From Pseudoalteromonas piratica (GTDB taxonomy: Bacteria; Pseudomonadota; Gammaproteobacteria; Enterobacterales; Alteromonadaceae): 64,000 nucleotides of DNA. The stretch's first letter is position 1, and each line of letters starts with the position of its first letter. The notes under the pieces were generated by a model. That model did not search any database. It was given only the letters and a program-made list of their open reading frames with translations, and was not told the DNA's origin. The DNA lies in NCBI RefSeq assembly GCF_000788395.1, contig NZ_CP009889.1:62001-126000 (forward strand). Reading direction: 5' to 3'. Positions 8,351-62,488 of the stretch are shown piece by piece. A program made the translations under genes and the position numbers.

Positions 8351-8779
8351 ATGATTTCAGTTAATTATCAAAAAACAATAAAGGCAACGCCAGATCAAAT
8401 TTTTACTAAGTTGATTGATCATCCCAATTTAGATCAATTGTTTAATGCCAAGTTTGAAGTGGTGAAAGAGCAAAACCTTAATGAACCTAAAGGTGGTAAA
8501 GGCTGTATCAGGCAAGTATCTATTCTTGGCGTGTCGTTTTTGGAAGAAATTGTTACCGCAAACAATCACGAAATTCGCTATCGCGTATTAAATAATTTTC
8601 CGGTAAAGAATCATTTAGGGGTTATATCTTTTCTGGCCCAAAATGACGCCACAACAGTCAATTATACTATTGAATGCCAATCCCCTTGGTATTTACCGCG
8701 TTTTCTCTTACGCAAATTACTTTCTAACGACATTCGCAATTGCTTAAATAAATTAGGAGCTATGTATGATCCCCGTTGA
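8351..8779 (+). CDS. SRPBCC family protein
   Basis: A 142-aa protein with the polyketide-cyclase/START-like pattern. An N-terminal strand-helix (YQKTIKATPDQIFTKLIDHPN) is followed by alternating beta strands and a long C-terminal helix (FLLRKLLSNDIRNCLNKLGAMY). Family members bind hydrophobic ligands in a deep pocket. Its last codons overlap the start of the sterol-desaturase-family gene by 14 bp, so it may present or sense the lipid that the hydroxylase modifies; this is inference. Confidence 0.8.
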   Translation: MISVNYQKTIKATPDQIFTKLIDHPNLDQLFNAKFEVVKEQNLNEPKGGKGCIRQVSILGVSFLEEIVTANNHEIRYRVLNNFPVKNHLGVISFLAQNDATTVNYTIECQSPWYLPRFLLRKLLSNDIRNCLNKLGAMYDPR

Positions 8780-13911: not shown

Positions 13912-14775
13912 ATGAATAAACGCTTTTTATTGCGCAGTCACTTTGATACCTGTAGCCAATTAGTTGCTGAACTACAAAATGCGTTAAAAAGTGCTGATCT
14001 GCAATTTTGCCATTACTATCAACTGCCAAAAATAAAAGAAGAAGAACACCATAACCCGGCCAAAAGCATTGAAGTAACACCATTTTCAGATAATGAAGCA
14101 CTCTCACTTTGTTGCGACGCATATCAAGATTGGTTTAAACAGCCACATATAAGTGGAAAATTATTAACCCGTCATCCAGCGATAGTCGGCATTAAAGGTG
14201 TTGATCAACACATCGAATCTTTGATCTTAGCGATTAATACCGAAAAGCAAGCCTTTAAGCAGATCGTTTTATCAGAAAAAACAAAAGATGCCCGTTTTGA
14301 ACTGGTGCACAGTGCGATTCCAAACTTAATCACCTTAGCTTTCTATCGACAGCTCTATTACGAAAAGCGGCCTACGTATTCATTGCGTTTTACCTGGATG
14401 CATAAACATTCGATACAACATTTAAATGTGAAACAAGCACTGGATTTTCTACATAAAAATCAAAGCCAAAAGCCACTAATAACAGAAGATAAAGCAGCTT
14501 GGAATGTCATGGTTGAAAAGGAAAAGCAGCGCATTATTAATTTGAGTAAGGATCACAAACTGCGTATTCGTCGTCCAATAAGGGTGTCGCCGCAAGTAAA
14601 TGTGCGCTTTAGCGCAACAGATCGCTACCATGTGAGCGCCGCCCTACCCTTTATTTTATTTAACGCTGAACAAACAGAAAAAGTCGGACAACTAAAGAAT
14701 TACGCGAAAAAAGCAGACGCTAGGCAGAAAAAAAGCCGCTATTTAATTGAGCGACTTTTTTTAGAAACACCCTAA
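13912..14775 (+). CDS. tus: Tus-like DNA replication terminus site-binding protein
   Basis: This 287-aa protein aligns along its length with E. coli Tus (309 aa). [18 protein letters not shown] matches LPEVKKEDEHNPLNRIEV of Tus; [20 protein letters not shown] matches [37 protein letters not shown] matches the DNA-contacting strands KLKIKRPVKVQPIARVWY. Tus binds Ter sites and stops forks arriving from one side. The gene sits beside the replication initiator rather than at a terminus, convergent with rep and 6 bp away. This arrangement suggests a role in making replication from this origin one-directional. A terminator hairpin lies in its last codons. Confidence 0.85.
   Translation: [287 protein letters not shown]
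14728..14762 (-). terminator. Terminator inside the 3' end of tus
   Basis: Seven As, a GCCGCT/AGCGAC stem and seven Ts form a symmetric hairpin within tus codons. It lies 20 bp past the rep stop, so it can end the rep transcript. It would also act on tus mRNA just before its stop codon. Confidence 0.65.
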
Positions 14776-14781
14776 AAAGCT

Positions 14782-15999
14782 TTAATCTTCAACGATTTGA
14801 ACAATATCTTCTTCGTTATCGATAACAATAGCGTCATCAGCTAACCGTTTACCGCTTTGGATCTCTAAGCGTTTCTTTTGTTTGTTTAAGCTTAGCATTT
14901 CTTCACAGAAATCATCCGTTGGGAACATTTCGTAAACGTAATCGATAATTTTACCAGATTTATCTTCCTTCACATTATCGATGGTGTAATCAGAAATTAC
15001 ACCTTTACTGATCAAATCTTTCATCGTTGTCGTCATATCACGACGCAGTGCTTTTAGTTTGTTTTCGGTAATTTCTTCATCACCCGTAATAGAGCCGTAT
15101 TTTTCCATAATTGAAAGTAAACGGAAGTGATGGGTTTTACCAGGCGCAGCATATCGCCATAAGTGATATAAACGAAGCATCATCCAACGTGACAAACCAC
15201 GTTTTAATTCTTGTGCACGGTTGAAGTAATATCCTTTATATTCAAGGTTATCAATCATGTTGTGAACAAAAGCATTTAAACAAGCAACACACTTTATGTT
15301 GCCGCCCTGCCCTTTCTTACCGCTAAAATGTAATGATGATAAAAAGTTCATATTTGACTCATAAAATGAGTCATCTACATCGGTATTTTTCGTGTCTTTA
15401 GCAGAATACTTGAAGCTTAGTTTAGAGCCTTGTAGTGCTTCTAACGCTTCTTTGATCTGAGGATAAGGCATTGACTGCCCTACGCTCTTCAGCTCTTGTG
15501 CCAGTTCATTCATTGAAAATACTACCGCGTACTGAATGCCCGACTTAAAATTGATCTTTACAATTTTACCTTTCGACGCCAAGCGGATCAGTGCGCGTTC
15601 AACCTTCTCTTCACGATCAGAGGGCCAAACTAAGAACTCTTTTTCTTCACCTTGTTGCTTAGTGCTAACAACAGCAGGCGTAATTTTCAACTCACCTTCA
15701 TATTGAATGCCATCAATACGCTCTGAAATACGGCGGGTAACAATGGTTCGGCCTGGTGCTTCTTCTACAGGTAGCTTTTTATGGCCCGATCGCACAAAAC
15801 GACCCCAAAGATCATAATGATTAAACGTATTTGAGTAAGCACGTAAATCGTGGCGAGCATTTTCAACAGGAACACGAACATCTTTATTGTCGGTAAATAA
15901 TGCCAAATTCTCATTATCAACAGCGCTTTCAACGCCGTGGATCTGTCCACGTAAGGTATCTGGCAGATTCTCAACCGAGATATTTACTTTGTTAGACAT
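14782..15999 (-). CDS. rep: Plasmid-type replication initiator protein of the second chromosome
   Basis: A 405-aa protein with the feel of plasmid initiators. A basic, partly disordered N-terminus is followed by winged-helix-like regions: around residues 95-200 (EEKEFLVWPSDREEKVERALIRLASKGKIVKINF onward) and around 235-330 (YKGYYFNRAQELKRGLSRWMMLRLYHLWRY, a helix-turn pattern). The family is probably the RepA/RPA-type initiators, but I identify it mainly from context. It is divergent from parAB across an 856-bp non-coding region with a DnaA box, many GATC sites and iterons. It most likely opens that origin and binds the iterons, including those in its own promoter, for autoregulation. Confidence 0.78.
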   Translation of the reverse strand: MSNKVNISVENLPDTLRGQIHGVESAVDNENLALFTDNKDVRVPVENARHDLRAYSNTFNHYDLWGRFVRSGHKKLPVEEAPGRTIVTRRISERIDGIQYEGELKITPAVVSTKQQGEEKEFLVWPSDREEKVERALIRLASKGKIVKINFKSGIQYAVVFSMNELAQELKSVGQSMPYPQIKEALEALQGSKLSFKYSAKDTKNTDVDDSFYESNMNFLSSLHFSGKKGQGGNIKCVACLNAFVHNMIDNLEYKGYYFNRAQELKRGLSRWMMLRLYHLWRYAAPGKTHHFRLLSIMEKYGSITGDEEITENKLKALRRDMTTTMKDLISKGVISDYTIDNVKEDKSGKIIDYVYEMFPTDDFCEEMLSLNKQKKRLEIQSGKRLADDAIVIDNEEDIVQIVED

Positions 16000-16070
16000 T
16001 CAAGTTCCCATCTAAATTATTATTATCTGCTAATATCATCACAGATCATTACTAAAGTTAATTAAATTAG

Positions 16071-16090
16071 TTAGTATAATTTTGATCTGA
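16071..16090 (+). repeat. Origin iteron, rep promoter copy 1
   Basis: TTAGTATAATTTTGATCTGA matches the iteron consensus with a few changes in the A-run. It lies 72 bp upstream of the rep start codon, suggesting autoregulation. Confidence 0.6.
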
Positions 16091-16107
16091 CCTTTATTTT
16101 TTTGCTC

Positions 16108-16128
16108 AGATCAAATTTTTACCAACTA
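16108..16128 (-). repeat. Origin iteron, rep promoter copy 2
   Basis: On the minus strand this reads TAGTTGGTAAAAATTTGATCT, a close match to the consensus in the opposite orientation to copy 1. Confidence 0.65.
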
Positions 16129-16201
16129 AAATGAAGTAAAATAACATTTCGCTTGTTAATGCGTTCAAAAAACGTACATGCAAATCAAGTTTTGACGTAC
16201 T

Positions 16202-16221
16202 GAGATCACTTTTTTACTAAC
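16202..16221 (-). repeat. Origin iteron copy 3
   Basis: On the minus strand this reads GTTAGTAAAAAAGTGATCTC, nearly identical to the distal-array units. A degenerate relative without GATC follows at 16232-16253. Confidence 0.65.
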
Positions 16222-16307
16222 AAAACGTTTTCAGAACGATATTTTACCAACTCAAAGGCCGATTTATTAGTATAAATCTGGTTTTTTTTACCAAAATAGC
16301 CCTTCAG

Positions 16308-16348
16308 TTAGTAAAAAACGGTTCTGAGCCAGTAAAAATAGGTGTTTA
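16308..16348 (+). repeat. Two degenerate origin iterons
   Basis: TTAGTAAAAAACGGTTCTGA (16308-16327) and CCAGTAAAAATAGGTGTTTA (16329-16348) keep the AGTAAAAA half but have lost GATC. They abut at a two-turn spacing of 21 bp, just before the DnaA box. Confidence 0.45.
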
Positions 16349-16358
16349 ACAAAGCGAT

Positions 16359-16367
16359 TGTGGATAA
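16359..16367 (-). other. DnaA box
   Basis: TGTGGATAA is the exact reverse complement of the consensus DnaA box TTATCCACA. It is the only perfect copy noticed in the origin region, and it sits between the degenerate iterons and the GATC cluster. Confidence 0.75.
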
Positions 16368-16438
16368 CTTAAGATCGAATTAGTAGGGATCTGATCTCAA
16401 CCAAGTTAGGATCCGATCTTAATTAACGTGATCTTTGT

Positions 16439-16472
16439 AATTGATTAAAATTGTATTCAATTTCAATCAATT
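16439..16472. repeat. AT-rich inverted repeat in the origin
   Basis: AATTGATT and AATCAATT form the outer stem, with AAATTG and CAATTT inside after one mismatch, leaving a TATT loop. The 14-bp stem could extrude as a cruciform or serve as a protein site. Confidence 0.5.
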
Positions 16473-16557
16473 ATCTTGGTTAAAACCTGATCTCAACGCC
16501 CTTTTTTGTGAATTGTGCTGTGCATAAACTGTACATTAACGGTGAATATAAAAAACA

Positions 16558-16623
16558 CTCAGTAAAAGGCTGATCTCACTGTAGATATAAAACGGATCTT
16601 TACCAAGTAAAAACACGATCCAG
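16558..16623 (+). repeat. Two parA-side origin iterons
   Basis: CTCAGTAAAAGGCTGATCTCAC (16558-16579) and CCAAGTAAAAACACGATCCAG (16603-16623) resemble the distal-array iterons. They are in forward orientation, 45 bp apart, and both contain GATC. Confidence 0.5.
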
Positions 16624-16639
16624 AAAAAAATATAAAATT

Positions 16640-16660
16640 GTTTTTTTACAACAAGTTATA
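16640..16660 (-). other. Possible Ter-like site in the origin (weak)
   Basis: The minus strand contains GTTGTAA followed by an A-run, matching seven core bases of E. coli Ter. The conserved C after the core and the upstream G are missing. It is listed only because a tus gene is present nearby. Confidence 0.2.
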
Positions 16661-16684
16661 TTAACAATTCACAGCCCTAATCTT

Positions 16685-16746
16685 AAATACCTTAGTATTT
16701 AACCACCTTTAAACTTATCTTTTATACCTTAGTAAATAAGTAAGGC
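16685..16746. promoter_or_regulatory. Repeated CCTTAGTA motifs upstream of parA
   Basis: AAATACCTTAGTATTT (16685-16700) is a near palindrome. CCTTAGTAAATAAGTAAGG about 30 bp downstream repeats CCTTAGTA and is itself an inverted repeat. ParA proteins with an N-terminal helix-turn-helix normally repress their own operon, so these are candidate ParA operators. Confidence 0.4.
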
Positions 16747-16855
16747 AATAAAACGCTATTTTTTTCTTTCAATTAAATAGATGTCGTCATAGAATAGTGA
16801 AAACAGCAAATTTAATGGACATTTGCATAATACACGTAAGTGTTAAGGTTTAGCT

Positions 16856-18091
16856 ATGACAATCACACAAAATGCGTTAAGTACCTATAAGCTTCTTAAA
16901 GCAACAGCAAAGGTAGCTGAGGAATCCCTAGAAGGACGTATTCAGCATTACCGTGCACATATAAAGTCAGATGAAAAAGAATTAAGAACGTACACACAAA
17001 AAGCAGCAGCTGATTTGCTTGGTTGTAATAACCGTACTCTTAAGCGCCGTCATGACCAAGGAGACTTTGATCACCTCGATATTAAAAAAGGTGCAAATGG
17101 TCATTATGCCTATACACTAAGCAATATTTATCAGATGGCTGATATTATGGGCATTCCTGCAGACAATCGTACTGCAGACGATAAGCTACAAGTCATTGTG
17201 GTAAATTCACTTAAAGGTGGATGTGGTAAAACAACAAGCCTTGTTAATATAGCGGCAGCACTGGCAACAACAAATATTAAACGTTATCGCATTGGTATTA
17301 TTGATCTTGATCCGCAAGGCTCATCGACTAGCTTTTTCCCTCCAGCTGAACCTGATCCCATTACTGTTGGTGATTTAATGCGTGATTGCATCGACCTAGA
17401 AGACGGCGAAACATGGGAAGAAGTTGTTTCAAGTGCATTTGTCACAACTCATATTCCAAATATTCGTTTTTTACCTTCAGGAATGGATGATTTTTACTTT
17501 GAACACGAAACTGCAACTCAGTTAAAAGAAGGAAAAGGTTACGAAGTATCTCAGCACTATCATAAATTGCTCGATAAAGTCATAAAACCAGTAGAAGATC
17601 AATTTGATATTATTTTGATCGATACAGCGCCTTCTCTCAATTTCATGTTTTACAATGCATTAATGGCATCAACCTCAATGCTGATCCCTGTGCACCCAGA
17701 AGCGGTTGATTTTGATGCAAATAATAAATATTTAAAACGATTAGGTGAGATCTATCATACCGTTGCTGCACTCGGTCATAATGGCTGGGACTTTATGCAA
17801 TTCTTAGTAACGAACTATGTAAAAGGCAATCACTCACAACGCGATATTGTTAAAGATGTGCGCAGTGCTTTTGGTCGTCAAGTAATGAGCTACCCAATCA
17901 ACCATAGCTCAGCAATTACTGCTAGTTCTTCATCTTTTAATACAATATTCGATCAAAAAACATCTGACAGTTTAGCCAGTCGCGAATCACTGATTAAATC
18001 ACAAGAAAATATCAAAGATGTGGTCGATGAACTGGAAATGTTGATCCGCTCAAATTGGTCATCAACCCAATGTCAGTTAGAAACAGCTTAA
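16856..18091 (+). CDS. parA: ParA family partition ATPase (type Ia)
   Basis: This 411-aa protein has an N-terminal extension of about 110 residues with a helix-turn-helix (YTQKAAADLLGCNNRTLKRRHDQG, 46-69), then the deviant Walker A motif KGGCGKTT at 120-127, the Walker A-prime segment IIDLDPQGSS and the ILIDTAPSLNF motif. ParA moves ParB-bound centromeres apart using ATP and nucleoid DNA; long forms with a helix-turn-helix also repress their own operon. It is followed 13 bp later by parB. The nearest origin is the adjacent non-coding region, so it serves this second chromosome. Confidence 0.93.
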   Translation: MTITQNALSTYKLLKATAKVAEESLEGRIQHYRAHIKSDEKELRTYTQKAAADLLGCNNRTLKRRHDQGDFDHLDIKKGANGHYAYTLSNIYQMADIMGIPADNRTADDKLQVIVVNSLKGGCGKTTSLVNIAAALATTNIKRYRIGIIDLDPQGSSTSFFPPAEPDPITVGDLMRDCIDLEDGETWEEVVSSAFVTTHIPNIRFLPSGMDDFYFEHETATQLKEGKGYEVSQHYHKLLDKVIKPVEDQFDIILIDTAPSLNFMFYNALMASTSMLIPVHPEAVDFDANNKYLKRLGEIYHTVAALGHNGWDFMQFLVTNYVKGNHSQRDIVKDVRSAFGRQVMSYPINHSSAITASSSSFNTIFDQKTSDSLASRESLIKSQENIKDVVDELEMLIRSNWSSTQCQLETA

Positions 18092-18104: not shown

Positions 18105-19073
18105 ATGGCAAAAAAACGTAAAAATGATACTCGAATCGATCCCTTTGCAACGGCAGTGGAATCGAGCAGTTTAGATGCTTTATTAGAAAACGCACAAGCG
18201 GGTGATCAGATCACCATGCCTGCACCTTCCGATCCTAATCGTGAAATTAAGTTGTACTGCAAACTAATTAAGAATCAAGAAATTGCACACAGCACAAACG
18301 TGTATGGTAAAAACCGCCGTGTACAAGCACTGCTAAATGAAAAGTCTGTGTCAGATATAATCACCAGCATAAAAAGCGATGGTCGTAACCAACACCCGGC
18401 GCTTTGCTGGCAGCAAGGCGATCAAGAGGTGGTGCTTGCGGGTTCTCGTCGTCGTAAAGCGTGTATGATCTCGGGCAGTGATTACCTTGTGTTAAGTTCA
18501 CCTGATTTCACCGAAGAAGATGCAAAAATTTTAGCGGTTTCATCTGATCAATATATTGCGCCTAGTTTATGGGAGCTCGGTCAAGCGTATGCGCAAACCA
18601 AGCAAGATCTGATTGAGCAAGGTCGCAAAGGATCGTACCGCGAGTTAGCTGAAATTGAAGGGGTGTCGCACACTGCGATTGCTGATGCATTAAAGGCATA
18701 TGAAAAATTACCGCAAGAAGTTTTATCACTGTACCCAACAGCAAATCATGTTGGCCGCGAAGTGGCAAAGAAGCTAATTGAAGCGCGTGAAAAAGACGTG
18801 GAACAATTTGCTGCAAAAGTGGCTGAGGTAAAACAGCGTTTAGCGGAACTTACCCTCGATACTGATGATAAAACGGCTCTGGCAATTACCCGTGAACTCA
18901 CTTATTCAGAACCAACGAATAGCAAAGCTCGTGAGATGATTGATATGGGTAACAGTTACATTAGCGCGCAAAAACATGGCAAAAGTGGTGACGTTGTTAT
19001 CAAAATTGATAATCGTGTCCTCACCGATAAACGCATGGAGCAGTTAACTAAGCTGCTAGCTAACTTTAACTAA
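18105..19073 (+). CDS. parB: ParB family centromere-binding protein
   Basis: The 322-aa protein has a basic N-terminus (AKKRKNDTR), a ParB/Srx-type domain around residues 75-145 with the arginine motif AGSRRRKAC at 112-120, and a helix-turn-helix at 177-200 (SYRELAEIEGVSHTAIADALK). ParB binds parS and loads onto DNA around it. The palindrome GTMAAN-CCC-NTTKAC, found seven times in this window, is a candidate target. It is co-transcribed with parA and followed by a strong terminator. Confidence 0.9.
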   Translation: MAKKRKNDTRIDPFATAVESSSLDALLENAQAGDQITMPAPSDPNREIKLYCKLIKNQEIAHSTNVYGKNRRVQALLNEKSVSDIITSIKSDGRNQHPALCWQQGDQEVVLAGSRRRKACMISGSDYLVLSSPDFTEEDAKILAVSSDQYIAPSLWELGQAYAQTKQDLIEQGRKGSYRELAEIEGVSHTAIADALKAYEKLPQEVLSLYPTANHVGREVAKKLIEAREKDVEQFAAKVAEVKQRLAELTLDTDDKTALAITRELTYSEPTNSKAREMIDMGNSYISAQKHGKSGDVVIKIDNRVLTDKRMEQLTKLLANFN

Positions 19074-23444: not shown

Positions 23445-23687
23445 CTAAAATGCCATCAGTGTTAAATATGGGATCATTAATATACCAACAAAAGTAAGTG
23501 CACCCATGGTCTGGCTTTGCAGTAATGCGAAAAGCTGCTGATTTCGGACTGTTCTCGCCTCGGAACACTGTTTTACTAACTCGGAAATTTGATACTCTTT
23601 TACTGCACTTTTTATCAATTGTTGTTCAAGCTTAAGTAGTTTTTTATAGCCGTTTTGTGCTTTTAAAAAATTATCTAATGTATTCAT
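23445..23687 (-). CDS. Small membrane-anchored protein of unknown function
   Basis: An 80-residue reading frame preceded by AAGG at a suitable distance. The N-terminal 58 residues are predicted helical and charged. The C-terminal 20 residues (MGALTFVGILMIPYLTLMAF) form a hydrophobic tail anchor. No family is recognised. It is convergent with the WYL gene. The good ribosome-binding site and organised composition favour a real gene, but evidence is modest. Confidence 0.45.
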   Translation of the reverse strand: MNTLDNFLKAQNGYKKLLKLEQQLIKSAVKEYQISELVKQCSEARTVRNQQLFALLQSQTMGALTFVGILMIPYLTLMAF

Positions 23688-23790
23688 ATTTAAGCCTTTT
23701 TATTTAAAGCAAAGCGTGATTTAAGGTTATTAAAGCTAACTTTAATGAAAAAATAAATAGCACGTTTTTTGACCTGTTAAAGATGTTTAC

Positions 23791-23833
23791 AGATCACATT
23801 TTTACTAGCTAATAAATCACATTTTTACTTACT
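23791..23833 (-). repeat. Isolated pair of iterons
   Basis: On the minus strand AGCTAGTAAAAATGTGATCT (23791-23810) and AGTAAGTAAAAATGTGATTT (23814-23833) are direct repeats 23 bp apart. The first is almost identical to units of the 60-kb array; the second has AATC in place of GATC. They lie in the gap upstream of rmuC. Confidence 0.65.
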
Positions 23834-23950
23834 CATTCCTGAATAAGGTGTTAAGAAGTTTTACATGTGGCTTGCTAAATAATTGAATAATGTGCGGGTT
23901 AAATCGCAAAAAAGGTATACTAAAACTGTTGTCTCGTTTAGGAAAAACTC

Positions 23951-25309
23951 ATGCAAGCTTTGTTAAACCAACCTGAAATAGTGATTACGGCATTTTTATG
24001 TCTGTTCGTTGTGTTTTTAGTGACTATTTTGGTAATAGCTGGTCGTCATAAAAATAAAATAGCTTTGCTCGAAGCTCAGCATTTACAAGAAAAATCAGGG
24101 CTGGAAGAAAAAGTAGCAACGCTTGTAGAAACCTCAGATCAAAATTTTACTAACTGGCAGCAAGAGCAAGAACGCGCCAATCAATTGCGTATTAAGTACA
24201 GTGCGTTGCAAACGCGCCTTACTGAAAGGGAACACAGCTATCAACAGCAATTAGCCAGCCTACAGGATGCGAAGTCAGAACTTAAAAAAGAATTTTCGTT
24301 ACTCGCCAACCAAATATTTGAAGAAAAAGGCCAAGCATTTAAGTCGCTGAATCAAGAGAGCGTGTCAAATTTACTCAAGCCTATGCAAGAGGAACTCAGA
24401 GGTTTTAAACAAAAAGTAGAAACCATTCATACCGAAGAGTTAAAACAACGCTCAGAGCTGAAAGCGGAGTTAATGCACTTGCAAAAACTTAATCAAGCCA
24501 TTACTTCTCAAGCTGAACAATTAACAACAGCACTACAAGGACAAAAGAAAACCCAAGGTAACTGGGGGGAGTTAATGCTTGAAAACGTATTAGAAAGTGC
24601 TGGGCTGCGTGTAGGTGACGATTATCAACGTGAATTTCATGTAAAAACCCTTGATGGTAATTATCGCCCTGATGTGGTGGTGTTTTTACCGCAAAACCGC
24701 CATTTAGTGATTGATGCGAAAACGTCTTTAAATGCCTACACTCAGTATGTAAATGCAGATAATGAATTTGTTGCTGAGCAAGCGCTAAAACAGCACGTAA
24801 GTGCGGTAAATGCCCGTATTGAGGAGCTTGCGAGTAAAGGTTACGATAAACTTCCTGGCTTGAACTCTCCTGAGGTGGTGATTTTATTTATGCCTATCGA
24901 ATCGGCCTATGTTGAAGCATTAAAATACCAACCGGACTTATATCAACGTGCAATTGAAAAAAATATTTTGGTAGCAACGCCTACAACCTTATTAACCAGC
25001 ATGAATATTGTGCGTCAATTATGGCGATTTGAAGAGCAAAGCAAGCACAGTGCAGAGCTCGCACAGCGCGCAGAACGTTTTTATACTAAGTTAAACGGCT
25101 TTTTAACCAGCATGCAGGGCGTTGGTAAAACCTTAGATAAAGCAAAAGAGGGCTACGACCGCGCATTTGCTCAACTTTATTCGGGCAAGGGTAATTTAAT
25201 TAAACAAGCTGCTGAATTTAAAGAGCTCGGTGTTGCAGTACAAAAAGAGTTACCAAAAGAACTGATTGAAAAGGCAGAGCTTGAACTTAACTTTGAACAA
25301 GATGAATAA
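23951..25309 (+). CDS. rmuC: DNA recombination protein RmuC
   Basis: This 452-aa protein starts with a membrane helix (VITAFLCLFVVFLVTILVI), continues with a long coiled coil to about residue 195, and then has the conserved RmuC nuclease-like domain. The domain includes KKTQGNWGELMLENVLESAGL, YRPDVVVFLPQNRHLVIDAKTSL and VVILFMPIESAYVEAL. RmuC limits recombination at inverted repeats in E. coli. Length and domain order are normal. It is a single gene. Confidence 0.93.
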   Translation: MQALLNQPEIVITAFLCLFVVFLVTILVIAGRHKNKIALLEAQHLQEKSGLEEKVATLVETSDQNFTNWQQEQERANQLRIKYSALQTRLTEREHSYQQQLASLQDAKSELKKEFSLLANQIFEEKGQAFKSLNQESVSNLLKPMQEELRGFKQKVETIHTEELKQRSELKAELMHLQKLNQAITSQAEQLTTALQGQKKTQGNWGELMLENVLESAGLRVGDDYQREFHVKTLDGNYRPDVVVFLPQNRHLVIDAKTSLNAYTQYVNADNEFVAEQALKQHVSAVNARIEELASKGYDKLPGLNSPEVVILFMPIESAYVEALKYQPDLYQRAIEKNILVATPTTLLTSMNIVRQLWRFEEQSKHSAELAQRAERFYTKLNGFLTSMQGVGKTLDKAKEGYDRAFAQLYSGKGNLIKQAAEFKELGVAVQKELPKELIEKAELELNFEQDE

Positions 25310-59189: not shown

Positions 59190-59834
59190 GTGCACAATTT
59201 ATTGATGGATAAGGCGACGTTGTCGCAAGTATTTCTTGCTTTCGCACCGATGGAAGCATTAAAAGTTAAAAATAATATCGACCAAGCAATTGATGCGTTG
59301 TCATTGCCTTCTGCGGAATTACTTGAAGAAATGCAGGCGCTTGGAATTGAGCTACCTGACAAACCGAGTGTTTCTAAAAAAGTCGATTTAACCACAATTA
59401 ATAGCACTGTACTGACAACACACCTCACAGAATTGTTTCTTGATAAAAACAAATTATTAAAAACGTTTAGTGAGTTTTCGTTGAGCGAACAAGTAGCACT
59501 TCGCGCATTTTTATATAACTTGATACCAATGCTTCACTTACCACCTGCGTCAATCATTGAAAAAATGCAGCAAGAAGGTGTGTTTGATGTTTTAATTGGC
59601 GAACAAGATAAAGCGCAAGCGGTTAAAGATAAAATAGCCGCGTTAAATGCTGAAAAAGAGCAGAACAAGCTTAATGCTGTAAAAGAGCGCTTAGCCAAAT
59701 TGTCAGATACGCCTAAGCAGTGTGCTGATGAGCTGAAAATTGCGCGCGTGAAATCAAATCTAAATAAAGCAACGTCACAGACCCAAACAGCTGAGCTTAT
59801 CGATATCAAAAGTAAGATTGCTCAGTTAGGTTAA
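59190..59834 (+). CDS. Helical protein of unknown function (possible broken exported protein)
   Basis: A 214-aa protein beginning at GTG 59190, seven bases after GGGAGGG; an ATG at 59205 is an alternative. Residues about 10-50 and 85-125 are similar to each other (L-x3-F-x2-F, then LSLPSAELLEEMQALGI against LHLPPASIIEKMQQEGV), an internal duplication. The C-terminal 75 residues are lysine/glutamate-rich helix, likely a coiled coil. No family is recognised. The in-frame upstream signal peptide suggests that the protein was, or is, exported. Confidence 0.65.
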   Translation: MHNLLMDKATLSQVFLAFAPMEALKVKNNIDQAIDALSLPSAELLEEMQALGIELPDKPSVSKKVDLTTINSTVLTTHLTELFLDKNKLLKTFSEFSLSEQVALRAFLYNLIPMLHLPPASIIEKMQQEGVFDVLIGEQDKAQAVKDKIAALNAEKEQNKLNAVKERLAKLSDTPKQCADELKIARVKSNLNKATSQTQTAELIDIKSKIAQLG

Positions 59835-60021
59835 CCGTCCGATCAGAGCGGCATTTTATTAACTCAAGAATGCTGCTCATAACTCTTCCTTAAACTTCAC
59901 CCCGAGTGCCCCTGTATCAAACGTTTACAAAACAAATTTTTACTAACTGACACGTCTTTGCGCCTATTTCAAGGTCGGTACAAGTACACAATAGATTCAA
60001 AAAGATGAAAATGCAGTTCAG

Positions 60022-60040
60022 AGATCATCATTTTACTAAG
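60022..60040 (-). repeat. Inverted iteron before the distal array
   Basis: On the minus strand this reads CTTAGTAAAATGATGATCT, a match to the consensus in opposite orientation to the array. Confidence 0.6.
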
Positions 60041-60075
60041 TAATAGACTGTAAGTGACAGAATTTAGCCAATTAG

Positions 60076-60491
60076 TTAGTAAAAATATGATCTATAGCGT
60101 GGCATTGCATTAAAAATTACTAACTAGTTGGTAAAAATGTGATCTCAAATGTCAAAAAACAGCGTTTAGCTGACTAATGTTAGTAAAAAGCTGATCTGTT
60201 GGTTGATAAATACCCTTAATTTTAACTTTAGTTAGTAAAATTATGATCTTTATAAAACGAATAGTTAGTAAAAATGTGATCTATCATTTTCATAGTTAGT
60301 AAAAATATGATCTTTAAACATCGTGTAAGTATGATATTCGCGCAAAAAATACTGTATTTAGGGGGAAGACGTGTCAATTTTGAACACTTGTTAACGTCTA
60401 TTTTACAATTAGAGAGATTTTAAATTAGCTAGTAAAATAGCGATCTGTGATTATTGCTAACCATATGTTACTTAGTAAAAATATGATCTGA
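60076..60491 (+). repeat. Distal iteron array of eight direct repeats
   Basis: Units of 20 bp start at 60076, 60128, 60180, 60232, 60265, 60296, 60429 and 60472. The consensus is TTAGTAAAAATATGATCT. The steps are 52, 52, 52, 33, 31, 133 and 43 bp. Every unit contains GATC at the same position, so each is a Dam site. The same iteron appears in the rep promoter and at 23791-23833, so the array is most likely bound by Rep, about 44 kb from the origin. Confidence 0.8.
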
Positions 60492-60522
60492 TAAGAGTAA
60501 GTGCTTCTATCATAGAGCAATG

Positions 60523-60545
60523 AAAAAAGGCCATTCGGCCTTTGG
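60523..60545 (-). terminator. Second terminator after aceA
   Basis: AAAAAAGGCC and GGCCTTT arms around ATTC give, on the minus strand, a stem followed by a T run. Confidence 0.65.
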
Positions 60546-60573
60546 ATCACAGTTAGGGATACATAATAATTCG

Positions 60574-60600
60574 TAAAAAAGCTAGGCGCTTTGCCTAGCG
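60574..60600 (-). terminator. First terminator after aceA
   Basis: On the minus strand GCTAGGC and GCCTAGC form a stem directly followed by six Ts, 28 bp beyond the aceA stop. Confidence 0.85.
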
Positions 60601-60627
60601 AGAGTGAACGATTTACCTTGGGGATAA

Positions 60628-62235
60628 TTAAGAGAATTGGTTCATAGTGTTGTCTTCACCTGCTGCTTTTAGCGCAGCGTCACCAGAGAAGTACTCTTTG
60701 TGATCATCGCCCATATCTGAACCTGCCATGTTTTGGTGTTTAACACACGCAATACCTTGGCGAATTTCCTGACGTTGAACATTTTTAACATAGCCAAGCA
60801 TGCCTTGTTCACCGAAGTATTCTTTCGCAAGGTTATCGGTTGAAAGTGCCGCTGTATGATAAGTTGGTAATGTAATTAAGTGGTGGAAAATACCCGCTTC
60901 ACGTGCAGCATCAGCTTGGAAAGTACGGATTTTCTCATCTGCCAATACTGCTAGTTCAGTATTGTCATATTCAACGCTCATTAGTTGGTCACGGTTATAC
61001 TGTGAAACATCTTTTCCTTCTTCAACCATTGCATCAAATACTTGCTGACGGAAGTTAAGTGTCCAGTTGAATGACGGTGAATTGTTGTAAACTAGTTTTG
61101 CGTTAGGGATAACTTTACGAATTTCATTTACCATCGCGCCAATTTGACCAACGTGAGGTTTTTCTGTTTCGATCCAAAGTAGGTCTGCACCATTTTGTAA
61201 TGACGTAATACAGTCAAGCACACAACGCTCTTCACCAGTACCTTGACGGAATTGGAATAGGTTGCTTGGTAAACGCTTAGGACGAACCAGTTTGCCGTTA
61301 CGGTTAAGAATAACGTCACCGTTTTTAATATCTGTAGATTCAATTTCTTCAACATCTAGGAATGCGTTGTACTGATCACCTAAATCACCTGGTTCATTGC
61401 TTACCGCGATTTGTTTAGTTAGGCCTGCGCCTAATGAGTCGGTACGCGCAACAATCACTCCATTATCAACACCTAGCTCAAGGAATGCATATCGCACAGC
61501 ATTAATTTTCGCAAGAAAATCTTCATGAGGTACTGTTACTTTACCATCTTGGTGGCCACATTGTTTTTCATCTGATACTTGGTTTTCAATCTGAATACAG
61601 CATGCGCCCGCTTCAATCATTTTCTTAGCAAGTAAGTAAGTTGCTTCTTCGTTACCAAAGCCTGCGTCAATATCAGCAATGATTGGTACAACGTGAGTTT
61701 TATGATCGTTAATTTTTTCTAATGCTGTCTGTTCAGCCGCGCTGTCGCCAGCTTTACGTGCTGCATCTAATTCACGGAAATAACCACCTAGTTCACGTGC
61801 GTCAGCTTGACGAAGGAAGGTATAAAGTTCTTCAATTAATGCTGCAACAGATGTTTTTTCGTGCATTGATTGGTCAGGCAGTGGACCAAATTCAGAGCGA
61901 AGCGCTGCAACCATCCAACCTGAAAGATATAAATAACGACGGTCAGTGTTATTTTGGAAGTGTTTTTTAATTGAAATCATTTTTTGCTGACCGATAAAAC
62001 CATGCCAACAACCTAAAGATTGAGTGTACTGTGATGGATCTTGATCGTACGCTTCCATATCCTTTCGCATAATATCTGCTGTGTAGCGAGCAATCTCTAA
62101 ACCATTTTGAAAGCGGTTTTGTAAACGCATACGTGCAGCCGACTCAGGGTTAATGTTTTGCCATTTCTTTTCGCCTACTTCTTTTAACGTTGCAATGCGA
62201 TCGATTTCTTGTTGGTAAGTTAATTGTGTAGCCAT
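60628..62235 (-). CDS. aceA: Isocitrate lyase
   Basis: AceA splits isocitrate into glyoxylate and succinate in the glyoxylate shunt. From the ATG at 62235 (AAGGA upstream) it has 535 aa; the frame extends 22 codons further but that is unlikely to be used. It is of the long bacterial type (about 530 aa), with the catalytic motif KQCGH at about 224-228 and IADIDAGFGNEEATYLLAKKMIEAGACCIQIE just before it. It is divergent from malate synthase G, so the two shunt enzymes share a 253-bp control region. Confidence 0.95.
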   Translation of the reverse strand: MATQLTYQQEIDRIATLKEVGEKKWQNINPESAARMRLQNRFQNGLEIARYTADIMRKDMEAYDQDPSQYTQSLGCWHGFIGQQKMISIKKHFQNNTDRRYLYLSGWMVAALRSEFGPLPDQSMHEKTSVAALIEELYTFLRQADARELGGYFRELDAARKAGDSAAEQTALEKINDHKTHVVPIIADIDAGFGNEEATYLLAKKMIEAGACCIQIENQVSDEKQCGHQDGKVTVPHEDFLAKINAVRYAFLELGVDNGVIVARTDSLGAGLTKQIAVSNEPGDLGDQYNAFLDVEEIESTDIKNGDVILNRNGKLVRPKRLPSNLFQFRQGTGEERCVLDCITSLQNGADLLWIETEKPHVGQIGAMVNEIRKVIPNAKLVYNNSPSFNWTLNFRQQVFDAMVEEGKDVSQYNRDQLMSVEYDNTELAVLADEKIRTFQADAAREAGIFHHLITLPTYHTAALSTDNLAKEYFGEQGMLGYVKNVQRQEIRQGIACVKHQNMAGSDMGDDHKEYFSGDAALKAAGEDNTMNQFS

Positions 62236-62488
62236 CGTTGTAATTCCTTCATCTTGTTTATTGGATGGCGCTGGTGTTATTACCTCGCAGAGCAACAACA
62301 TTGAACGGGTAGCGCCTTTACATCTAAGTTAGGCTGAATCGTAATAATTTATGAAATTTATAGTTTTTATCACCAATATTTATCTAATGAATGCCAAAAA
62401 CAAGCTTTCTTGTGTAAGTTAGATAGAATCAAGTAACCAAATTATTTAAACGCATACAATTGTGTGCCACTTCAAGGTGAGAAAACTT

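Follow-up and report, generated by a model that had tools for sequence, protein, structure and literature searches.

Array of iteron-like repeats beside aceA

What does a row of GATC-containing repeats do beside aceA, 44 kb from the replication origin (ori2) of a Pseudoalteromonas secondary replicon? The window analyzed is a 64,000-nucleotide stretch of Pseudoalteromonas piratica, positions 62001–126000 of a 1,618,489-bp replicon in a two-contig genome, and that replicon is the Pseudoalteromonas chromid. The explanation we favor, and consider likely, is that the repeats form a control array of iterons for the chromid initiator, RepA. The array and its flanks are given below in window coordinates; bit scores are from a position weight matrix (PWM).

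59190..59834, forward strand: 214-amino-acid open reading frame (ORF), function unassigned, convergent with aceA
59845..59862, reverse strand: inverted weak copy, 15.0 bits
59929..59946, reverse strand: inverted weaker copy, 22.2 bits
60022..60039, reverse strand: inverted copy, 25.0 bits
60076..60489, forward strand: eight direct iteron-like copies of TTAGTAAAANNNTGATCT, starting at 60076, 60128, 60180, 60232, 60265, 60296, 60429 and 60472
60628..62301, reverse strand: aceA (isocitrate lyase), with the array at its 3′ end

The initial annotation had described eight direct repeats in a gene-free gap, each with a Dam site, the first four 52 bp apart and the next two steps 33 and 31 bp, and this was confirmed. 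All eight starts were located, GATC is present in each copy, and the start-to-start steps are 52, 52, 52, 33, 31, 133, and 43 bp. The gap (59835–60627) contains no ORF of at least 100 amino acids and is flanked by the convergent 3′ ends of the 59190–59834 ORF and aceA. That description was incomplete in that the inverted copies at 60022, 59929, and 59845 had been overlooked; with them the gap holds eleven sites scoring >12 bits, eight direct and three inverted, within 650 bp. Seven of the eight direct copies plus the inverted copy at 60022 scored at least 25 bits, the direct copy at 60429 scoring 24.0 bits. Matches to the 18-mer with up to three mismatches numbered 16 in the window vs 0.20 expected, a count reached by none of 100 shuffles. 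The array is real and not a product of chance. Note that a 14-bp inverted repeat (59945–59958 and 60366–60379, 93% complementary) has one arm inside the 133-bp interval of the array.

The claim that the same unit occurs at the rep promoter also held, with copies in the repA–parA gap at 16071, 16108, and 16203 plus weaker ones. The features of this region are as follows.

13912..14775, forward strand: tus homologue (Ter protein), convergent with repA and considered below as a rival binder
14782..15999, reverse strand: repA, the chromid replication initiator, with a predicted fold nearest RctB
16000..16855: ori2 region (repA–parA gap) with 13 motif sites >12 bits, the strongest at 16071, 16108 and 16203
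16856..18091, forward strand: parA2 (AAA_31/ParA-like)
18105..19073, forward strand: parB2 (ParB/RepB/Spo0J-like), below curated cut-offs

Three ori2 sites exceeded 24 bits, and all 30 genus repA loci scanned had at least four motif sites. The gene order in the window (tus-repA-ori2-parA-parB-SNF2 helicase-WYL-rmuC) matches the chromid ori2 cluster described for Pseudoalteromonas in the excerpts of Xie et al. 2021 used here, in which repA plus the putative ori2 was shown to replicate in two other Pseudoalteromonas species (PMC7858055). Since the cumulative GC skew minimum falls at ori2 and the skew of 20-kb samples switches sign between 800 and 900 kb on the chromid, replication of the chromid appears to be bidirectional.

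Conservation and placement of the chromid arrays

An array was found at the aceA 3′ end in 38 of the 39 chromid-bearing genus genomes, this one included. At least three sites lie within 1.5 kb past that end in 29 of 30 aceA loci and in all nine remaining chromid-bearing genomes, whereas the aceA bodies and other flanks of the 30 loci have seven sites in total. The interval between the two copy blocks, read by eye, is 132–134 bp in 20 of the 29 array-bearing loci and 79–156 bp in the other nine. Same-strand steps of 20–60 bp fall near multiples of an assumed 10.5-bp period both at aceA (119 steps, R 0.81) and at ori2 (136 steps, R 0.71). A comparison of position and spacing in relatives, as had been proposed, thus showed the array at aceA to be kept, but the 52-bp step and the 44-kb origin distance to vary. 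The exact phasing is a property of this genome and near kin that does not define the locus across the genus: steps of about 52 bp (51–53 bp) were confined to this genome and the two relatives closest to it, most other aceA arrays have steps of 40, 42, and 32 bp, and the ori2–aceA distance is ~11–83 kb in the 15 genomes for which coordinates were subtracted (circular contigs assumed where needed).

This conservation bears on the reading in which RepA binds the array without the array having a control function of its own, its sites being relics of an ancestral origin or kept by chance. One genome (G009) without an array at aceA, and the shifting places of other chromid arrays among genomes, would be expected of such relics. 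Retention of the array at 38 of 39 aceA flanks, and of the 132–134 bp interval in 20 of 29 loci though the neighboring open frames differ, would not, and on this conservation the neutral reading was rejected as unlikely.

Exact sites were mapped in 10 genomes using the pattern TTRGTAAAANNNTGATCY, for which the reversed-pattern control gave one match in all. The repA contigs contained 123 such sites: 31 at ori2, 87 at 1.2–110 kb on the parA side, three farther away, and two on the other side. This count assumes the contig extent of G020 and excludes three found on plasmid G008:C3 as well as 13 located on main chromosomes. Such a distribution around ori2 and toward parA argues against a terminus role and is consistent with loci that double early in replication. 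Initiator-type sites therefore lie outside but near the origin, as at a datA-like locus. The single remote array of the initial annotation is one of several, and a conserved array of the same sites is present on the main chromosome as well (below).

Exact sites were also seen ~3 kb from ori2 on the parA side, by distance just past parB, in seven of the 10 genomes (for example, G025:C2 399195–399357 and G017:C2 156557–156864); none is listed for the window in the interval from parB to the SNF2 gene. In addition to its aceA array, G028 has clusters at distances of ~79 and 89 kb from ori2 (C1 1191256–1202489).

Association of the motif with RepA replicons

The exact motif was detected in 39 of the 40 genus genomes, P. 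piratica included (the reversed-pattern control was zero in each), and repA and tus were likewise each found in 39 of 40. The sole genome without motif, repA and tus (G001) is a single contig that also has no aceA orthologue and no MinC match over the cut-off. MinC is on the repA-bearing contig in the 10 other genomes checked for it, and the G001 assembly probably lacks the chromid. RepA is found at 82.5–84.4% identity in twelve named Pseudoalteromonas records of 0.68–1.3 Mb, and Dam was present in nine of nine genomes tested.

Plasmids encoding RepA homologues (47–54% identical) were used to tell RepA from Tus as the binder. Four of these carry their own GATCT-ended repeats upstream of repA: the ACATGTAGTAAATCTGATCT type on pTML1, the AGATCGCATTTACACGTTAT type on the P. 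donghaensis plasmid (16 copies, partly 41–43 bp apart, the reverse complement ending in GCGATCT), the CATAGAGGAAAANTGATCT type (as reverse complement) on G008:C3, and the ACATATAGGAAAACTGATCT type on the P. spongiae plasmid (record taken as circular). All four types consist of a G[TG]AAA-like half followed by a GATCT end. No tus match was found on pTML1, which was read whole as two loci; the tus search in the P. donghaensis and P. spongiae plasmids covered stretches of each.

At the sequence level RepA is an orphan in the collections searched: Pfam and NCBIfam gave no family meeting the cut-off, a PDB sequence search returned one ribosomal match at chance level, RepA was not found in the phage collection, and no sequence relation to RctB was detected. 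The predicted RepA fold was nearest that of Vibrio RctB (template modeling score 0.36/0.49, root-mean-square deviation 5.2–8.7), which suggests that RepA is an initiator of the RepE/pi/RctB fold (winged-helix Rep). Taken with the association of repA and repeats across chromids and plasmids, the array units are very probably RepA binding sites.

Downstream of the resident repA of plasmid G008:C3 (16025–16546, L075), and likewise of that of P. carrageenovora plasmid pKCTC22325 (1906–2427, L070), lie three chromid-type TTAGTAAAA sites. As the repeats upstream of the G008:C3 repA are of another type, this plasmid may carry sites for the chromid initiator.

A main-chromosome array of these units upstream of phoB

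Five sites scoring >12 bits lie on the main chromosome of this genome (C1 1292657–1292873), between a 613-amino-acid ORF and a porin gene and adjoining phoB, phoR, and a pstS-like gene. Each of the 40 genus genomes, G001 included, proved to have an array upstream of phoB. It lies within 1.5 kb in 28 of 30 phoB loci and at ~1.5–1.9 kb in the other two (G036 and G033); in ten genomes examined as stretches taken separately it lies at up to ~2.1 kb, with G017 and G034 at ~1.8–2.1 kb. Of the 13 exact sites on main chromosomes, 10 belong to the phoB array, the other three being alone elsewhere (G008:C1 1364966, G021:C1 3451981, and G022:C1 1298270).

As the first PWM had been trained on loci that it scored, the test was repeated with a PWM built only from ori2 sites. 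At least three sites >12 bits were recovered in 28 of 30 phoB loci and 29 of 30 aceA loci, and 26 and 27 loci, respectively, passed at >14 bits. No site >12 bits was found in 28 phoB loci of other genera or in 220 kb of this chromid; at >10 bits the other-genus loci gave one match. Scans reaching 1.5 kb to either side of phoB did not show the array in these 28 other genera (28 of the 36 such genomes with a match), although an array farther out could escape these controls, given that two genus members have theirs at ~1.8–2.1 kb.

At phoB, one strand typically carries two to five sites, which are followed by an equal number on the opposite strand. The innermost opposed pair is 104–108 bp apart, start to start, in 23 of 37 loci (range 96–147 bp), and 88 of 92 same-strand steps <60 bp are 30–32 bp (R 0.91). 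G014 (no inner pair in the cut locus), G016, and G020 are outside the 37. Between the half-arrays a match with at most one mismatch to WATCAANNNNTTR, the consensus of integration host factor (IHF), was found in 29 of the 37 loci, 13 of these matches being perfect, vs a chromid background of 0.27 (at most one mismatch) and 0.019 (perfect) per 90 bp. Eight loci have no IHF-like site, and that of the P. piratica genome is on the other strand with one mismatch. When an IHF-like site was sought in the 133-bp interval of the window array, the best candidate had two mismatches.

In the nine genomes with a one-contig main chromosome the phoB array lies 559–926 kb from dnaA, at 0.35–0.45 of the replichore. 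With MinC assumed to stand in for the terminus, the part of the arm still to be copied past the phoB array is longer than the longest chromid arm in all nine, by 110–478 kb; in G000 and G002, in which MinC lies opposite ori2, the excess is 213 and 204 kb. The two lengths have a Pearson correlation of 0.66 and a rank correlation of 0.12 (p 0.77, n = 9), and phoB could be held at this distance simply because gene order is conserved. The geometry is therefore compatible with a replication trigger but is not evidence for one. The phoB array is a candidate crtS-like locus, a conserved main-chromosome locus with what appear to be sites for a chromid initiator.

Readings with other binding proteins

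One such reading takes the units as Ter sites of the chromid Tus and the array as a polar replication fork trap. The tus gene adjoins repA, tus and motif co-occur in 39 of 40 genomes, and eight asymmetric sites in one orientation look polar. No Ter sequence was found here for the chromid Tus, and in the excerpts of Xie et al. no E. coli-like ter was found close to where replication of the P. tunicata chromid is expected to end (PMC7858055). However, 118 of the 123 exact chromid sites lie at ori2 or on its parA side, and the phoB array, with both orientations part-way along the replichore, would block forks from both sides. Moreover, pTML1 has a RepA homologue and GATCT repeats but no tus match, and Tus is only 40–45% identical in 36 of 38 relatives, nearly all of which have RepA at 83–86% identity and the same motif. 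Sites so placed and so oriented do not fit a terminus, and a fork trap is very improbable.

Scarcely more room is left for operators of an ordinary transcription regulator of aceA or of phoB-linked genes. The phoB array does lie upstream of the porin gene and phoB in this genome, but the window array is between two convergent 3′ ends, and the motif, which reaches its highest density at ori2 and in the arrays, was not detected within 1.5 kb of phoB in the 28 other genera examined; on these grounds the operator reading was rejected. Centromere sites often cluster near an origin, and the proximity of parAB would fit sites (parS) bound by ParB2, but related repeats also flank a plasmid repA where this ParB has no match (the P. 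donghaensis plasmid has 16 GATC repeats beside repA, no match to this ParA/ParB in 50 kb of 244 kb, and only a PRTRC-type ParB annotated in that stretch) and a conserved main-chromosome array is hard to explain for a chromid centromere, which makes a parS role barely credible.

Proposed control of ori2 and comparison with known systems

In the RepA-iteron explanation, the aceA array would consist of extra-origin iterons lined up for RepA to bind, and would belong to a set of such arrays located on the parA side of ori2. It would be copied soon after ori2 fires and so double early, and the doubled array would soak up RepA or pair with ori2, keeping ori2 from refiring early. Such an array could lower free RepA or pair with the origin because it would double early and holds more strong sites than does ori2. 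The Dam site in each unit could tie RepA binding to methylation state. Passage of main-chromosome replication through the phoB array would time the chromid in a crtS-like manner. The titration, handcuffing, or datA-like role put forward in the initial annotation is the best-supported reading, given the RepA replicons, ori2, and the placement of sites near ori2, and is partly supported. For the chromid arrays a negative role by titration or pairing is somewhat favored. A timing role of the phoB array has a little less than an even chance. The same holds for the full scheme, a tentative three-site RepA network consisting of ori2 itself, titration arrays with helical phasing on its parA side (the one at aceA in this genome), and, upstream of phoB on the main chromosome, an inverted array that often has an IHF-like center.

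Several observations weigh against the RepA explanation. The plasmid repeats have 2 bp less between half-sites than does the chromid motif, and thus the link of motif to RepA rests on family resemblance; moreover, G008:C3 does have a tus match (26%). The RepA structure is a moderate model (predicted local distance difference test 73.8) and its match to RctB has the scores given above. The aceA array is missing in G009, the arm geometry is loose (110–478 kb, rank correlation 0.12), and the helical phasing was scored against an assumed period with R values that have no null. The spacing and IHF counts come from related genomes, and as these are not independent, conservation counts overstate the evidence.

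The closest parallel is Vibrio cholerae, for which we rely on excerpts of the papers cited. There, RctB sites ~40 kb from ori2 titrate or pair RctB, and a datA-like role was proposed for them by the authors (PMC3937223). As here, those sites are outside the origin of a secondary chromosome, on an early-replicated side, and have a Dam site per iteron (PMC3937223). The Vibrio sites are spread over 74 kb, whereas here eleven are packed into 650 bp at close to whole helical turns and keep their place beside aceA. When the strongest distal RctB site was deleted by itself, no growth phenotype resulted (PMC3937223), which also counts against a control role here. The predicted fold of RepA is similar to that of RctB, but no sequence relation was detected.

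Like the phoB array, crtS is a main-chromosome locus part-way along the replichore, its recognition by RctB having been shown whereas that of the phoB array by RepA is inferred (PMC3937223, PMC11711613, PMC6090056). The crtS sequence does not resemble the iterons that RctB binds (PMC11711613), whereas the phoB array repeats the units found at ori2, arranged as two half-arrays facing opposite ways. Chromatin immunoprecipitation sequencing of RctB also gave other main-chromosome regions, some with iteron-like sites (PMC11711613), and hence such sites on a main chromosome are not unique to Pseudoalteromonas. The delay after crtS replication in V. cholerae corresponds to ~200 kb (PMC6090056). In the excerpts of Xie et al., both Pseudoalteromonas replicons are reported to finish replication together; the authors suggest a crtS-like site, which comparison with Vibrio crtS did not reveal, and do not settle on a mechanism (PMC7858055). 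Among the loci found here, the phoB array is the best candidate for the signal between chromosomes that those authors suggested.

The datA locus of E. coli is, like the aceA array in its proposed role, an initiator-binding locus near the origin that limits re-initiation; it binds DnaA and promotes its ATP hydrolysis (PMC3937223), whereas no nucleotide switch is known for RepA. Among plasmids, the incC locus of F is also mentioned (PMC11711613).

The incC locus of F and incA of P1 supply additional iterons beyond the minimal origin, by which the initiator can be titrated or bridged. Both lie close to the origin, whereas the aceA array is tens of kb away on a 1.6-Mb replicon.

No description of these sites was seen among the matches listed and in the passages covered of the open-license literature searched. 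If the proposal is correct, the phoB array would join Vibrio crtS as a second trigger of replication acting between chromosomes, one made of ordinary origin iterons, and the initiator of this lineage would share the RctB fold without detected sequence similarity. Extra-origin initiator sites, one set per replicon, would then be a recurrent means of turning a plasmid into a cell-cycle-timed chromosome. The arrays offer candidates that are both concrete and conserved, and that lend themselves to deletion or relocation.

Other sites in the window and minor observations

Two further occurrences of the motif were found in the window.

8392..8409, reverse strand: lone strong site within the ORF at 8351–8779
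23562..24153, reverse strand: second small cluster, upstream of and just inside rmuC, with sites at 23562, 23791, 23814 and 24136

The E. coli-type dif consensus had zero matches in the window and one on the main chromosome, leaving dif2 unplaced. In two genomes a gene was matched as two pieces, one of which had an internal stop: repA in G023:C7 (471428–472625) and aceA in G038:C35 (179450–181040).
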